DNA of 53,315 nt. Origin: Candidatus Poribacteria bacterium (lineage in GTDB: Bacteria; Poribacteria; WGA-4E; WGA-3G). Shown one piece after another: positions 12,444-20,130 of the stretch. A program made the position numbers and the translations under genes. The first letter of the stretch is position 1. Every line of letters starts with the position of its first letter. The stretch covers positions 1 to 53,315 of the forward strand of contig JAAXHO010000123.1 of NCBI GenBank assembly GCA_012270795.1, written 5' to 3'. Below the pieces are notes generated by a model. The model ran no database searches. It was given only the letters and a program-made list of their open reading frames with translations, and was not told the origin of the DNA.

Positions 12444-14237
12444 CTACTGACTTTTCTGCAAACGGGTTTCTAATGCGTCTAATTCTTCAGACAAAGCAGC
12501 AGGAAGTCTTTCTTCAAAACGTTCATAATGTTCACGTATTGACTGAATTTCGTTCAGCCATTCATCTATGTCTACGTTCAGAAGTTCGTCCATTTGTTGT
12601 TCCGTTACATCAAGTCCTGAAGTATCAATTGCGTCCTTTGCAGGTAGGTACCCGATAGGCGATTCAACTGCTTCGCCCTTTCCGTTTATTCGATCAACGA
12701 TCCACTTTAGCACACGACTGTTTTCGCCAAAACCTGGCCACAACCAACCCCCGTCTGCATCCTTTCGGAACCAGTTGACATAGAAAATTCGGGGTAGTTT
12801 GTCGGCATCAGTCTTTCCTCCCATTTCTAACCAGTGTGCAAAGTAGTCCCCCATGTTATATCCGCAGAAGGGGAGCATCGCCATAGGGTCACGTCTGAGT
12901 TCACCGACGGTGCCTGCAGCGGCTGCTGTGCGTTCAGATGAAGCAATAGATCCGATGAATGTGCCGTGTTGCCAGTTGAATGCCTCAAAAACGAGCGGTA
13001 CCGTTGAAGCTCTACGTCCACCGAAAAGAATTGCTGAAATCGGTACACCGTTCGGGTTTTCCCAATTCGGATCAATTATGGGACACTGCGCTGCGGGAGT
13101 TGTATAACGTGAGTTGGGATGTGCTGCAGTCTTTTCATCGCCAGGGTGCCACTCTTCTCCGAGCCAACTTATAGCAGTTTCTGGCGGTTCTTCAGTCATC
13201 TCCTCCCACCAGACATCGTTGTCAGGGGTGAGTGCTGCGTTGGTAAAGATAGAGTTGGATGCAAGTGTGTGCATCGCATTCGGGTTAGTGTGCATAGAGG
13301 TGCCGGGGCCGACACCGAAAAACCCTGATTCTGGATTAATCGCATAAAGTCTACCATCCTCACCGAACTTCATCCAAGCGATGTCATCACCAATCGTCTC
13401 TGCTTTCCAACCCGGGATTGTGGGTGTGAGCATTGCCAGGTTCGTTTTACCACAAGCACTTGGAAACGCTGCGGCGATATACCTCTTTTCACCTTCTGGG
13501 TTGGTTAACCCCAGAATAAGCATGTGTTCTGCCATCCATCCATCATTCTTCGCCATAATAGAGGCAATGCGAAGTGCATAGCATTTTTTACCGAGTAATG
13601 CATTCCCGCCATATCCACTCCCATAAGACCAAATGGAACGTTCTTCAGGAAAGTGGACGATATATTTGTTGTCAGGATCGCAGGGCCAAGAAACATCATC
13701 TTGTCCAGGCTCAAGTGGCATCCCAACAGAGTGCAAACAGGGAACAAAATCGCCATCTTCACCCAATACTTCTAACACCTCTTTACCCATACGTGTCATA
13801 ATCCGCATATTCACAACGACATAAGGCGAATCGCTAATTTCTACACCGATATGAGATATTGGGGAACCGAGGGGGCCCATACTGAAAGGGACGACATACA
13901 TCGTGCGTCCTTTCATACACCCTTTGAAAAGTCCGTTTAGAGTCTGTTTCATCTCATCGGGGTCATGCCAATTGTTTGTAGGTCCTGCCTCAGCTGGGGT
14001 TTTGGCGCAGATATAGGTTCTTCCTTCAACGCGTGCTACGTCTGCTGGATTGGAACGCGCAAGGTAACTGCCAGGACGTTTGTCCGGGTTTAACCGAACA
14101 AATGTTCCATTTTGTACCAACTGTTCACACAATCTGTCGTTCTCTTCCTGCGAACCATCGCACCAATAAATATCGTCGGGTTGGCATAGCTCCGCTGCTT
14201 CCTTAACCCAACTGAGCAATTTACTATTGTTTGTCAT
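12444..14237 (-). CDS. pckG: Phosphoenolpyruvate carboxykinase (GTP)
   Basis: 597 aa, the normal length of GTP-dependent PEPCK. It converts oxaloacetate plus GTP to phosphoenolpyruvate, GDP and CO2 (gluconeogenesis or the reverse). Seen directly: the P-loop stretch [15 protein letters not shown] (255-269) with the hyper-reactive Cys262, [20 protein letters not shown] (283-302) with the metal-binding aspartates, FGVGPGTS after it, and [13 protein letters not shown] (guanine pocket region). The ATG at 14237 has GGAGG seven bases upstream. The gene is monocistronic and the family A repeat lies directly downstream. Confidence 0.97.
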
Positions 14238-14390
14238 CCAAGTCCTCCATTTTATTTTCTCAATCTATATTATCATGAATTCGGGAATGTGGCAATCAAA
14301 TAGAGATTCGGTCACGGATATACGTCACTATTACAATCACACTGTTTTCCTAATTATCAAGACGTTTGAATATCAATAAAGTTGAAATAT

Positions 14391-14627
14391 TAGTAGTGAA
14401 TTATCAACAAAAAAACGCATTGGAAAACACAAAGAGAATCTAATACCATTTCCGTAGGTCGGGTAGAGCGTAAGCGAAACCCGACACGTATTTCTTGTGG
14501 TTATCCTGTCGGGTTTCGCAAGCTCTACCCGACCTACAGTTTATTATAGTAATTTGTTATTTAGAAATGGTATTAGTAGCGAATTATCAACAAAAAAACG
14601 CATTGGAAAACACAAAGAAAATCTAAT
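14391..14627. repeat. 54-bp direct repeats flanking a family B element
   Basis: TAGTAGTGAATTATCAACAA... at 14391-14444 recurs as TAGTAGCGAATTATCAACAA... at 14574-14627, 54 bases with two mismatches. The segment between them is exactly the family B element at 14443-14573. This pattern suggests either an insertion with a very long target duplication or loss and gain at a pre-existing repeat. Confidence 0.85.
14443..14573. repeat. Family B repeat (MITE-like hairpin)
   Basis: Ends ATACCATTTCCGTAGG and TTAGAAATGGTAT. The body is a hairpin built from GGTCGGGTAGAGCGTAAGCG... and ...GCAAGCTCTACCCGACC. No nested GAATGCC unit is present in this copy. It lies upstream of pckG in the gap before 14810. 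Confidence 0.85.
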
Positions 14628-14790
14628 GACTGGAGGCGGGGCTAAACTTGCAGCTGAACAGCATACCGCAAGGTTACCTCGCCGAAGGGAGAAGACACAC
14701 AAGGTGGCAATTGCATGCGCCTTACCCGATTGCTGTTGTTCGTTTGCAAAATAGAAGGCAGATACCTATAACAGATACCTGCCTATAAAC
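14628..14790. other. GC-richer segment able to form stable RNA stems
   Basis: On the plus strand GGCGGGG near 14635 pairs with CCTCGCC near 14687. CTTGC pairs with GCAAG inside it, and AAGGTG pairs with CGCCTT near 14710-14725. The segment is richer in G and C than its surroundings. No plus-strand gene follows. No known riboswitch class was matched convincingly. Confidence 0.3.
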
Positions 14791-14809
14791 AAATTAGAAG
14801 GGAAAACGA

Positions 14810-15316
14810 CTATCGCGTGGTTATTAATTTGTAACCTGTTTTGTCACCCGTGCCTTCGCCATTAACAGCGCGCATGCGCACACGAAACTTGGTTCTACTG
14901 TATTGTGTGCTAATTAATTTATACATACTCGTGCCAGCAGAAGTCCAGTTGCAATAAGTAACATAACGTCGCAGACTCACACTATAATAATCTAACTGAT
15001 ACTCGTAGTCTGTAATCGGTGAAAAACCATCAAAATCAGGTTTCGTCCATGTCAATTCAATACTGCCACGAGCCGTGCCTTTAGATAGACTGAAACTCTT
15101 CGGTCGCCAAGGTTTTTCCTTTGGATGATTAGCCCGCGCATCCGGGCAAGCAAGGTTGCCACAGATACACGTATCACAATCTGGCGACTTGTCAAAAGCA
15201 TCCGAAGCAAAACCGACACCATTTGGACCATAAATGGACACCGCAGGCGGAGTCGTCGTCCCTTTGCCATGGGGTGTCGCAGCATTTGCACTATACGAAG
15301 AAAAGTAGTAACCCAT
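14810..15316 (-). pseudogene. 3' fragment of a split secreted protein: fibronectin type III domain
   Basis: 168 aa if started at the ATG at 15316. In fact the frame is open from 15437 and continues the gene at 15438-16370 once one copy of a 19-base duplication is removed. Residues about 75-165 are a fibronectin type III domain: PWRPKSFSLSKGTARGSIEL, TWTKPDFDGFSPITDYEYQL, TKFRVRMRAVNGEGTG. Before it is a Cys-rich stretch, CDTCICGNLACPDA. Such domains bind proteins or glycans outside the cell. No ribosome site precedes the ATG, so separate translation is unlikely. Confidence 0.75.
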
Positions 15317-15428
15317 TACATCAGCATATATATTATCATTAAATGCATAATTAACAGAATACCGATGTACTTCCTTCTTAGTAGGATCGTCACACCGACG
15401 ATACGGCGCACCACAAATACCAAGTTTA

Positions 15429-15466
15429 TTTGTCCAACTAGGCGTATTTTGTCCAACTAGGCGTAT
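15429..15466. repeat. Perfect 19-bp tandem duplication causing a frameshift
   Basis: TTTGTCCAACTAGGCGTAT occurs twice in direct succession (15429-15447 and 15448-15466). It lies inside the reading frame on the minus strand. Nineteen is not a multiple of three, and the second copy brings an in-frame TAG at 15438-15440. Removing one copy joins the two flanking frames without any other change. Confidence 0.95.
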
Positions 15467-16370
15467 ACGGTACAGAAAAATATAACTCTATCTCAAGACC
15501 ACAATACAAAACCTGATGTTCTTTAAGCTCTGCGGGACGACACGTCCAATACGGATCGCTGCACCCCTCACAAGTCGCATGATGACTCAACGCACTCGAA
15601 CTCAATTCTGATGTCGCAACATGCACACCCGTTACACCCGTAAATAGATGATTGAGAGAAATATCATCAATATTGTCGCTGGCAGAGGTGCTGCCATAGC
15701 TAACATAAACATCTTCCGCACCAGGATTCCCAAGCACATAAAGGAGATACGCAGTGTTATAATACCAATCACTACACTCACCCAGACACAGCATAGCAAA
15801 TGGAGGAGTAGTTCCCTGCATATCTGCTAAAGATGTCTGATTCTGCTTCTTACGATGGTTCCCTTCAAACTGAGCAAGTGCGTTCCAAAACAGATCTCGA
15901 TCCGCAAACGCAGTCGCTAACACAGCATTCTGAGCCTCTATCTCACCCCACTTGTCATACAGCTGCAACTTATACTTAAAAAGTTTCACATTGCCAATTA
16001 ACTCACGCAGAATGCCGTCTATTAACAGCGTAACTGCTATGACATCTGCACGTTTACGTAACATCGCAGCGAGAGCCACAGGCATAGCAAGACCTCTCAG
16101 CCCAGATTCGTCACCATCAGCCGCTATCTGAAGCACATCCGCCTCATATTTCAATCTATCCATCTTATCTTCGGCATCATCCAAGTACTCTTCGTAGGTG
16201 TTCCATTCTGCATGTGCTTGGATCGCGCTGGTAAGTTCGAATTTTGTTCCATCAGAGGTAGTAACAGTTACGGATGTCGGGGTATCATTCTGCGCGGGGG
16301 ATGGACTGATTGGCAATGCCACAGCACAAACGATCAGGATCGTAAGGGGAATTCTGTGTAAACGTAACAT
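15438..16370 (-). CDS. 5' part of a split secreted protein, unknown N-terminal domain
   Basis: 310 aa as it stands. Residues 1-27 are a signal peptide (RIPLTILIVCAVALPISPSPAQ), so the product is exported. Residues 30-170 are helical (EEYLDDAEDKMDRLKYEADV, IDGILRELIGNVKLFKYKLQ). Residues 195-300 contain paired Cys (CLGECSDWYY, CEGCSDPYWTC). The frame stops within a 19-base tandem duplication. The single-copy version would encode 513 aa ending in the fibronectin III domain at 14810-15316. The ATG overlaps the stop of the upstream gene as TAATG, so the two are translationally coupled. Function unknown. Confidence 0.8.
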   Translation of the reverse strand: MLRLHRIPLTILIVCAVALPISPSPAQNDTPTSVTVTTSDGTKFELTSAIQAHAEWNTYEEYLDDAEDKMDRLKYEADVLQIAADGDESGLRGLAMPVALAAMLRKRADVIAVTLLIDGILRELIGNVKLFKYKLQLYDKWGEIEAQNAVLATAFADRDLFWNALAQFEGNHRKKQNQTSLADMQGTTPPFAMLCLGECSDWYYNTAYLLYVLGNPGAEDVYVSYGSTSASDNIDDISLNHLFTGVTGVHVATSELSSSALSHHATCEGCSDPYWTCRPAELKEHQVLYCGLEIELYFSVPYTPSWTKYA

Positions 16371-17047
16371 TATTGGTCATCTCCTTCTTCTTCAGCATCA
16401 AGCGTGGGAAGCGGTCCAACAAGAATAGGTGAACGATCATACTTAATATTGGCACGTCGCCATTCCTCATGCTTTTTCTTGGCTGCTGCTTTTTTGTCAT
16501 TCTTGATATAGCCTAACTCAGTTATTTTATCGTTAATTTTACGACTCAAATCTGACTCTTCTGGCGAAGCATTTTTGTCATCAAAACTCCGCTTTGAAAC
16601 ACCATATTGAATCACTTTTTTACCGAATTCACGTTCATAAAGTTCGTCCAATGACGGGTCATCACCAAAGGATTCAAAGTAATTTAGCCATTCGTTGAGG
16701 TCTCCCACGCCATCAATAATGACAGGTTCAAATTTTTGTTGTGGGTTTTCGTTAGGAACCTCAGCATTCTGCACAGGTGGATGCTCAATCGGTTCGTTTG
16801 GACTGTCAATCGGTACTTTGTCCCAGTGGTCATTATGCCGCACCCATTTGAAGCCGGGTACATCAGCAGGTTTTTCGTCACTGAAAATAATGTTTGGCGT
16901 TGTTGGGGGTTCGTGTTTTACTTTTGGGCCGCTGTTAAGATTTTTATCGAAGTTTTTCCGGTCTATGTGCAAGTAGATTTGCAACGCGGCGAAACCGACT
17001 ATTACTATAACAAGGACACTGAATGCCCATTTTAATTGGCGAGTCAT
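16370..17047 (-). CDS. One-TM protein with proline-rich linker, unknown
   Basis: 225 aa. Residues 6-27 (KWAFSVLVIVIVGFAALQIYL) are one membrane anchor. Residues 40-110 are Pro/Asn/Glu-rich linker. Residues 115-225 are charged and helical, ending with a basic stretch (NDKKAAAKKKHEEWRRANIK) and an acidic tail. Its stop overlaps the start of the secreted fibronectin-III gene (TAATG), so the two products probably work together at the cell surface. The architecture resembles the protein at 11117-11935. No known family was recognised. Confidence 0.75.
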   Translation of the reverse strand: MTRQLKWAFSVLVIVIVGFAALQIYLHIDRKNFDKNLNSGPKVKHEPPTTPNIIFSDEKPADVPGFKWVRHNDHWDKVPIDSPNEPIEHPPVQNAEVPNENPQQKFEPVIIDGVGDLNEWLNYFESFGDDPSLDELYEREFGKKVIQYGVSKRSFDDKNASPEESDLSRKINDKITELGYIKNDKKAAAKKKHEEWRRANIKYDRSPILVGPLPTLDAEEEGDDQ

Positions 17048-17207
17048 GTTTTTATCCTCCTATTTATATAGGACGAATCTCATACAATCATTTGTAGGGT
17101 GGGATCCCTGTAACTAACCATTACTAATATATAACCACAGTTATAGTAAGTCAATTTGTTATATTAATCAAGTTAAATTTTTTCATATAATCTAAATATA
17201 ACAAATA
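17048..17207. other. AT-rich intergenic stretch
   Basis: Upstream region of the one-TM protein operon (minus strand). The sequence is AT-rich with possible -10-like boxes, but no well-spaced promoter pair was seen. Confidence 0.35.
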
Positions 17208-17541
17208 ATACCATTTCTAAAATATAATTTCTCATTAGCTGCGGAGATCTGGTAGGAGCGACCTCCAGGTCGCGACCGAGGGAATGCCATTGGGCGAATG
17301 CGCTTGGTAGAATACGCCAAATCAAGAAATCAACGGTATGAATGCCTTTTAGGCATTCCCCTAAATCAACGCTACAAATGCCATTTAGGCATTTGGCGGG
17401 TATGAATGCTATAGAGCATTCCCCGTGTGGTATTCTACATGATTTGCCATGATTCATACCGTTGGTTTACTGGTCGCGACCAGAGGTCGCTCCTACCAGT
17501 TTCTCCGCAGCTAATGAGAAATTATATTGTAGAAATGGTAT
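17208..17541. repeat. Long family A element with several nested hairpins
   Basis: Terminal arms of about 65 bases (ATACCATTTCTAAAATATAA ... GCTGCGGAG ... CTGGTAGGAGCGACCT) recur inverted at the right end. The interior, between two GGTCGCGACC sites, holds at least three small hairpins: AATGCCATTGGGCG-like, GAATGCCTTTTAGGCATTC and AAATGCCATTTAGGCATTT. Its last base is the first base of the sense-complement of the stop codon of the Omp85 gene. Confidence 0.92.
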
Positions 17542-19409
17542 CAGAAGGACGCGCCTAACTTTACATGAACCTTACCCCGAAGAGCAGAATCGCCAGCTGC
17601 AAGTCCATAATCCAGTTGTATAATCCCATTTTTGGATTCAAGTCTTGCACCGAACCCGTAACCGACACGCAGCTTGTCAAACACAGACGGTCTGTCAATG
17701 AAGGTAACCGCCCCTAAATCAAGGAAGGTGAAAATCTGTGAGTTTTGACCTGTCAAGAATCTATATTCAATATTTGAATACACCCTGCGGGGGCCTGAGA
17801 ACCAATCTTCGTCGTATCCGCGTAATGTAGTTGCCCCACCTAAATAAAACAGTTCTGTCGGTGGTATGTTGACACCCCATGCTGCTGCGCCATGCAGTTC
17901 AACAGCAAAAATCTGTCTTTTCCATGTCTGGAAGTATTGTTGCATGTCAACCCATATTTTTCGTAGTCTAAAATCACTTCTTGAGAGTTCAACTGCGATA
18001 CTATCGCGTCTCCCGCGTGTCGGATTAAGGAAATAATCTCGCGAATCACGTGTTAACCGAAAGGTGACACTATACTTAGAACCTTCATCAAAGGATATAG
18101 GGGTCGTATTCAAGCTGGCGTTTGTAGTAGGTGAGAAGGTGTCTATTGTGGTGGCGACTGGTAATGGTGCTGTTGTGTTTGCATACCGAATCTGTTTATA
18201 GCCAAGTGTGATCTCACTTTCATAGAAACTCCCAAATTTCGTGTTACCACTGAGACGTGCTGCCCGTTCTTCAGATTCGACATCGTTGAAGGGATTGCGT
18301 TGTTTGAGTTGACTATAGGTTATCCCCATATTGATGGGTTTCCCTAATATCCAAGGTTCTTTGTAACCGACTTGAAGTGCAGTTAGCAACCCCGATTTCC
18401 AGTAGAAATTGACATCACGCCCGGTACCTAATAGATTTGTCTCGCGCATTTCTACTACACCCGTGAGCTGCGGCACGGAGTCTAATCCCTCTACAGGCGG
18501 CGCATAGCCGAGGACACCGACTAAACGTCCTGTCGGTGCTTCAGTTACTTTTGCATGAAAAATGATAGTGTCTTCAGTTAAACCTTCCTCTAAGAGGTTT
18601 GGTTGAATGGAATGAAACAATCCTATATTTCGCAATCGGTGATAACTCTGATCAATCTTTCGCTGGTCAAATAACTCATGGGTCTTAATTGGTAGTTCTC
18701 GCATTACAACATGGCTTTTGGTTTTCTTTAATCCACTTACCTTGATGTGGCTCAGTTTGACCTTGGGGCCTTCCTGAATCAGCAAGCTGATATCCATACT
18801 CCCAGTCAATGGTGAAAGATTTGAGATTGTAGGTTTGATTTCTACCTTCGGATGTCCATGTTCGCTGTATAGTTGTTGAATCCTTTCAATGCCTTGTTCC
18901 AGTGCGGTGAGTGCATAGAATTGTCCTTTTCGTAGACCGAGCTGCCGCCGTAATTCATCTTGAGAAAAAAGTCTATTTCCGATAAATGCGAAATTACCAT
19001 TCCGCAGACGTTTTCCTTCTCTGACTTTGACAGATAGCAGAATACTTTGTGATGTCGTGGGGGTTGCGAGGGGGGTTATCTGTGCAAATACAAATCCGTT
19101 TTGCCGATATGTGTTTATGATACGGTCAAATCCCGCAACAATTTCATTGCGTGAATATGCTTTTTTTGTTTGCCACCTAAACAGATTTCTCAACTTTCGC
19201 TGGTTGAAATGTTTGTTTCCTTCAAAGTTGAGTCGAGAAATGTAGTAGAGAGGGAGTGTGTTGATGTCTTCTGTTATGTTGTCTGGTGCTGTTTTTTCTG
19301 TAGTGGTATTTTGACCTTCGCTATTATTTTGGGCAAAGGTTACCCCTTTTATCGTTGTCAGGCAGAGCAGTATTATGTTGATAGACAATAGGAGGCGTGT
19401 TACATGCAT
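17541..19409 (-). CDS. Omp85/TamA-like outer membrane protein with three POTRA domains
   Basis: 622 aa from the ATG at 19409. The signal peptide is RLLLSINIILLCLTTIKGVT ending FAQ. Residues about 55-300 hold three POTRA units: ISRLNFEGNKHFNQRKLRNL, FAFIGNRLFSQDELRRQLGL, and IKVSGLKKTKSHVVMREL. The C-terminal half is a beta barrel with the lid motif GGATTLRGYDEDWFSGPRRV and a terminal Phe (VHVKLGASF). Omp85 proteins insert or export proteins across the outer membrane; three POTRAs resemble TamA more than five-POTRA BamA. A longer start at 19517 is possible, but it would overlap the promoter at 19504-19533 and puts a non-signal segment first. Confidence 0.9.
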   Translation of the reverse strand: MHVTRLLLSINIILLCLTTIKGVTFAQNNSEGQNTTTEKTAPDNITEDINTLPLYYISRLNFEGNKHFNQRKLRNLFRWQTKKAYSRNEIVAGFDRIINTYRQNGFVFAQITPLATPTTSQSILLSVKVREGKRLRNGNFAFIGNRLFSQDELRRQLGLRKGQFYALTALEQGIERIQQLYSEHGHPKVEIKPTISNLSPLTGSMDISLLIQEGPKVKLSHIKVSGLKKTKSHVVMRELPIKTHELFDQRKIDQSYHRLRNIGLFHSIQPNLLEEGLTEDTIIFHAKVTEAPTGRLVGVLGYAPPVEGLDSVPQLTGVVEMRETNLLGTGRDVNFYWKSGLLTALQVGYKEPWILGKPINMGITYSQLKQRNPFNDVESEERAARLSGNTKFGSFYESEITLGYKQIRYANTTAPLPVATTIDTFSPTTNASLNTTPISFDEGSKYSVTFRLTRDSRDYFLNPTRGRRDSIAVELSRSDFRLRKIWVDMQQYFQTWKRQIFAVELHGAAAWGVNIPPTELFYLGGATTLRGYDEDWFSGPRRVYSNIEYRFLTGQNSQIFTFLDLGAVTFIDRPSVFDKLRVGYGFGARLESKNGIIQLDYGLAAGDSALRGKVHVKLGASF

Positions 19410-19503
19410 GTGATGGAAAACCTGTGGGTAATGTGGTAGGAACATTTTACCATGCGCGGCGCGATAAATGCAAATGCGTCTTGCGAACATCAGAGATTTT
19501 TTA

Positions 19504-19533
19504 TTGACTTTAAACATTAGTTTACTGTATAAT
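19504..19533 (+). promoter_or_regulatory. Sigma-70 type promoter for the coiled-coil gene
   Basis: TTGACT (19504-19509), an 18-base spacer and TATAAT (19528-19533). It lies 58 bases before the start at 19591 and points towards it. Confidence 0.6.
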
Positions 19534-19590: not shown

Positions 19591-20130
19591 ATGTGGAACA
19601 CAATGATATTGCCCATTCTTACATCCCTTACCGCAACAGGTTTGGGTATCTTCATAGTCTGGCTCTTTAACCGCAAAAGACAATCTGACGAGAGAACAAA
19701 CCAAATTTCCTATATTATCAATGAAATTAGCGATATTAAAAATAAAATAAGTAACCTTTCTGACGAAAAGAATAACCAAACTGCCCATATTTTGAATGAA
19801 ATTAGTGATATACGAAATAATGAAATTAGTGATATACGAAATAAGGTAAGTAACTTTTCGGAACGGTTAGAACTTGAAACTGCCAAGAACGAAAAATTCA
19901 GGGAAGAGGTTAAGGAAGAAGTTCAACAATTAAGGGTAGAACTGCAGGAAGAAATTCAAATCATAAATGGGGAAATCCAAGGTATAAATGGGGAAATTCA
20001 AGGCATAAAAGAACAGGTTACTGAAAATAGAAACATGATTTACAAACTGATCGGTGTTGTAGAAAATCTCCAAAGTATTGTAACAGGCAGTCAAAACAAA
20101 ATACAAGGTGATGTTCAGAGCGAATCATAA
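19591..20130 (+). CDS. Membrane-anchored coiled-coil protein
   Basis: 179 aa. Residues 5-27 (MILPILTSLTATGLGIFIVW) are one membrane span near the N-terminus. The rest is coiled coil with short internal repeats: NEISDIKNKISNLS, NEISDIRNNEISDIRNKVSN, and INGEIQGINGEIQGI. The repeats look recently amplified at DNA level (GAAATTAGTGATATACGAAA twice, AATGGGGAAATCCAAGGTAT-like units). AAGGA lies seven bases before the ATG. Function unknown; such proteins often act as tethers or sensors. It opens the accessory cluster. Confidence 0.7.
   Translation: MWNTMILPILTSLTATGLGIFIVWLFNRKRQSDERTNQISYIINEISDIKNKISNLSDEKNNQTAHILNEISDIRNNEISDIRNKVSNFSERLELETAKNEKFREEVKEEVQQLRVELQEEIQIINGEIQGINGEIQGIKEQVTENRNMIYKLIGVVENLQSIVTGSQNKIQGDVQSES

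Follow-up and report, generated by a model that had tools for sequence, protein, structure and literature searches.

Is an exact 19-bp tandem duplication lying inside the gene of a probably exported protein a switch by which the protein can be turned on and off, an accidental lesion, an error of assembly, or simply the border between two natural genes? We examined this question in a window of 53,315 nucleotides (the whole stretch of DNA that was analysed) taken from the MAG of a sponge-associated Candidatus Poribacteria, a lineage also pointed to by a search with the Omp85-family gene that flanks the locus. The assembly comprises 298 contigs and 5.18 Mb and is 95% complete. The best reading is one of ordinary recent decay under relaxed selection, rather than of a purpose-built switch: the duplication is probably a recent chance loss-of-function mutation, by which a single gene was pseudogenized in a family of exported proteins that is multi-copy and fast-changing. 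The features on which the argument relies are the following:

15429-15447, no strand assigned: 19-bp unit TTTGTCCAACTAGGCGTAT (as read on the plus strand), copy 1; holds the premature stop (TAG on the minus strand, 15440-15438).
15448-15466, no strand assigned: 19-bp unit, copy 2, identical, without extra flanking homology.
15438-16370, minus strand: N-terminal ORF of 310 aa with a signal-peptide-like start, shortened by the frameshift; homology to intact proteins of 375-553 aa.
14810-15445, minus strand: C-terminal remainder, 211 aa open, with LGICGAPYRRCDDP and then one fn3 domain; first ATG at 15316 (168 aa).
16370-17047, minus strand: partner gene of 225 aa, whose N terminus holds one transmembrane-like segment; it forms the constant first part of a two-gene cassette and has 12 further matches in the genome.
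17541-19517, minus strand: Omp85-superfamily protein with POTRA domains, which borders the cassette site on the left in relatives.
12444-14237, minus strand: putative phosphoenolpyruvate carboxykinase-like gene (by-eye reading); relatives have it at 87-98% identity, and it borders the cassette site on the right.

The two copies stand head to tail, and the bases adjoining both ends of the repeat mismatch, which leaves zero extra homology between them. Exact tandem duplications with a unit of at least 19 bp have a chance expectation of about 4e-7 in 53 kb of the same composition, and the unit has no other occurrence in the whole assembly, even when two mismatches are tolerated. The host gene lies on the minus strand. 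Its start codon, the ATG at 16370, shares bases with the stop codon of the gene upstream, as the sequence TAATG shows directly. From this ATG the frame reaches the premature TAG after 310 codons, and the C-terminal frame is open from 15445 to 14810. The 19 added bases, a multiple of three plus one, shift the frame; translation would then end at the TAG, and the product of 310 residues would lack the conserved C-terminal part, Cys-rich and with fn3. Removing one copy in silico yields a single frame of 513 codons, free of any further stop or frameshift. An earlier note on this DNA, which did not give the strand of the gene, had described a perfect direct duplication causing a frameshift and a stop, and a 513-residue frame free of other damage once one copy is removed; both descriptions proved accurate, as did its view that the duplication alone broke one gene, and the event does look recent. 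As for the origin of the duplication, a microhomology-mediated event was rejected because of the zero extra homology, and for Ku-dependent end joining no Ku match was found in the genome (95% complete assembly). Other repeated elements are present in the window. At 14388-14627, 57-bp direct repeats (96% identical) surround a MITE-like element with inverted ends GTAGGTCGGGTAGAGC, relatives of which are plentiful across the genome; upstream of the cassette, at 17206-17540, there is another MITE-like element with 39-nt inverted ends (TACCATTTCT...AGAAATGGTA); and at 19795-19844 an exact 24-bp duplication adds 8 residues in frame to a coiled-coil-like ORF of the plus strand.

The break sits between two conserved segments, EHQVLYCG and LGICGAPYRRCDDP. 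Congeneric homologues, each made of one ORF (G001, 530 aa; G005, 525 aa; G016, 375 aa; G006, 553 aa), align on both sides of it, with identities of 42-48% in the C part and, for G001, G005 and G016, of 28-36% in the N part; no repeat was found at the position of the break in any of these four. Because the homologues read through the break as single ORFs, the single gene is, on this comparison of sequences, the ancestral state. The earlier note had held that relatives with two independent genes and the same stop would speak against it, and the opposite was found, intact homologues across the break being what one looks for in a recent pseudogene. The same note had spoken of a secreted fibronectin-III protein. 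The domain is clear in the G006 homologue, with two fn3 stretches scoring 60.6 bits, whereas the C-terminal fn3 of the window scores 23.4 bits (E=7e-5), under the Pfam cut-off of 25, and a profile search against the PDB gave weak titin matches in the fn3 part and nothing else. No Pfam or NCBIfam model matches the Cys-rich N-terminal part, and fn3 is the sole model found for the two-gene cassette. The first 25-30 residues, read by eye, resemble a signal peptide, so the protein is probably exported.

The broken gene is the second, secreted half of a two-gene cassette, and the genome holds about 13 such cassettes. The first part of the first cassette gene matches 12 further places in the genome; a contig scan with the N-terminal ORF of the broken gene as query found no relative. 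In the nearest species (L183, JAJEBZ010000035.1), the flanks are 91-94% identical and a different pair of genes occupies the same site: when L183 6001-13227 is compared with window 12444-19517, the correspondence inside the cassette is limited to about the first 195 bp of gene 1 and about the last 100 residues of gene 2. No orthologous one-copy allele is available from the sister species, where the interior of the cassette is unrelated. In more distant species (L184-L190), a few hundred bases separate the Omp85 and carboxykinase-like genes, and no cassette match was found between them. The different interior in the sister species and the lack of a cassette match in the distant ones indicate, at the level of sequence, that a cassette whose ends are constant and whose interior varies was inserted and replaced at this site. 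Elsewhere in the genome (G000:C164:5411-6427; L158, L175), a transmembrane partner and a secreted protein seem to form one frame of 461 codons, possibly a product of fusion or deletion.

The window gene is not the only damaged member of its family. Among the secreted partners readable in the genome, 8 of 12 are frame-broken, in lists drawn from partial loci which do not amount to a complete inventory; those of C195, C147, C215 and C4 seem open over the sequence read. Exact tandem duplications are found in four of the eight: 19 bp in the window, 26 bp in C111 (with a second frameshift), 50 bp in C22 (where a 1-bp difference also breaks the first gene), and both 22 and 15 bp in C43 (with a 1-bp indel). 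C208, C227, C161 and C273 are broken by other small indels. The position of the lesion differs in every broken paralogue, and the duplications of C22 and C43 arose independently, because each of these near-identical paralogues is single-copy at the site duplicated in the other. C111 and C43 are not restorable by the loss of one repeat copy. In G001 and similar relatives, the family matches fall in frames that stay open, for the most part over 500-600 codons, and that no internal stop interrupts. In the assembly that contains the window, 62 ABC ATPase matches show no internal stop.

The earlier note had named an assembly error as the main alternative. A true sequence with one copy and an intact gene would suit a MAG of 298 contigs with at least one N gap within a scaffold (L160), but neither the unit nor its surroundings recur in the assembly, which discards a multi-copy repeat misleading the assembler, and the 38 bp fit well inside one read. 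The genome-wide pattern of duplications makes such an error at the 19-bp site less likely still; we consider it unlikely and keep some weight on it. A census of exact two-copy duplications with a unit of at least 15 bp, covering 1.38 of the 5.18 Mb, found 31 of them: 11 fall in genes, which make up 85% of the sequence, and 20 in the remaining 15% between genes (P=5e-10), and 10 of the 11 in-gene duplications keep the frame (P=1.3e-4). Of the 22 duplications whose extra homology is 0-2 bases, 16 lie between genes, which is the same bias (P=2e-9). Random joins are disfavoured since they would respect neither genes nor frames, and the pattern is as expected for real mutations filtered by selection. 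The rates amount to 96/Mb between genes and 9/Mb in genes, and similar duplications occur in the single-contig assemblies of the relatives G009 and G024 (67/Mb and 42/Mb between genes, respectively). Frame breaks, for their part, are concentrated in the cassette family. Its four duplicated loci in about 20 kb (an estimate of the family size) fit the between-gene rate (about 1.9 expected, P=0.13) but not the in-gene one (0.19 expected, P=4e-5), and the simplest reading is that the genes of this family evolve nearly without constraint. In favour of artefacts, this genome has a larger proportion of duplications whose extra homology is 0-2 bases than G009 has (22/31 vs 3/11, P=0.03), and an ABC ATPase has its Walker A motif interrupted by a 21-bp duplication that can hardly be harmless; for these two reasons, some duplications of the assembly may be minority variants or artefacts. 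The Walker A duplication itself, exact and in frame in an ABC exporter (G000:C159:19255, L043; GKSTLIKGKSTLI), is likely inactivating or a minority variant. Two other duplications were noted: an exact 19-bp one with zero extra homology at G000:C192:84022 (L094 local 4022), by which an unrelated ORF goes from 358 to 314 codons, and an exact 36-bp one at G000:C192:178012 (L098 local 18012), which includes a Shine-Dalgarno-like AAGGAG and directly precedes another transmembrane-type ORF.

If the duplication is real, the reversible slipped-strand switch proposed by the earlier note has to be weighed. In such phase variation, slippage or recombination between the 19-bp copies would toggle the exported protein at a useful frequency, and several observations are compatible with it: exact adjacent repeats can collapse and restore the frame, the affected protein is probably exported as judged from its start, several paralogues share exact frame-breaking duplications, and a passage of PMC4022640 refers to comparable reversible duplications in pneumococcal capsule genes. 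The proposal is nevertheless unsupported at this locus, and we regard it as improbable. There are two copies only, with zero extra homology, and hence no driver for switching from one copy to two; the homologues have no repeat at this position; each broken paralogue was hit elsewhere, half of them without an exact duplication of at least 15 bp; the further frameshifts of C111 and C43 are beyond repair by copy loss; and the expected reversion of a 9-bp insertion is given, in the same passage of PMC4022640, as at most about 1e-5. It is very improbable that the switch operates at the level of the family, frequent short tandem duplications free of flank homology, later lost, switching or diversifying the exported cassettes so that cells express different subsets. 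That each ORF is a natural gene of its own, or that the C-terminal part is re-initiated and functional alone, can hardly be credited: the C part does have an in-frame ATG at 15316, but this codon lies downstream of the conserved LGICGAPYRRCDDP, and both halves belong to one ORF in the homologues.

A recent chance loss of function remains the reading that we prefer. We infer that the lesion is fixed rather than polymorphic, and that selection on the family is relaxed in this lineage. Against this explanation stand the missing orthologous one-copy allele and the fact that C111 and C43 carry additional lesions where the window gene carries one, so that an on/off polymorphism may exist at the window locus alone. 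The frame could now and then be regained, in a passive reversion, if slippage or recombination removed one of the copies, while a new duplication starting from the one-copy form would have no repeat to work from. Because this reverse step lacks a repeat template, the anatomy of the locus does not suggest a programmed two-way switch. Taken alone, the duplication would be an ordinary pseudogene lesion, and its interest comes from the setting: cassettes with constant ends and variable interiors which differ between sister species, most members of the family being broken, half of them by exact tandem duplications. Mixed copy numbers, if true, would make it possible to test how surface proteins vary in an animal symbiont that is uncultured.

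Several known systems resemble this locus in part. Reversible tandem duplications in capsule genes of pneumococcus (the type 3 locus, cap8E and tts) underlie phase variation, according to the work of Waite et al. (2001, 2003) as cited in a passage of PMC4022640. The likeness is close for the lesion itself: in both cases a short exact duplication within an ORF abolishes the product (here, the loss of the full product is predicted from the frame), and the loss of a copy can in principle restore it. The difference is that the pneumococcal switch was observed in culture, whereas the present case consists of one static MAG sequence whose siblings are broken in several unrelated ways. Contingency loci made of simple sequence repeats also change frame through repeat number, but in their tracts many short units gain and lose copies; here there are two 19-bp copies, which form no multi-unit tract, the one-copy form has no pre-existing repeat, and no repeat conserved in position and varying in number was seen among G001, G005, G006, G016 and the paralogues. 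Pseudogenes in multi-copy families of surface proteins share with our case the many independently frameshifted members in one genome and the open homologues in relatives; what differs is that about half of the broken genes are broken here by short tandem duplications. Finally, in Poribacteria signal peptides or transmembrane helices are frequent among fn3 genes (Kamke et al. 2014, PMC3909097); the present gene comes from the same phylum, while its family with a Cys-rich N-terminal part and its cassette have no Pfam or NCBIfam model except fn3. The locus adds a further example of a familiar type of lesion, in a little-known family of cassettes.
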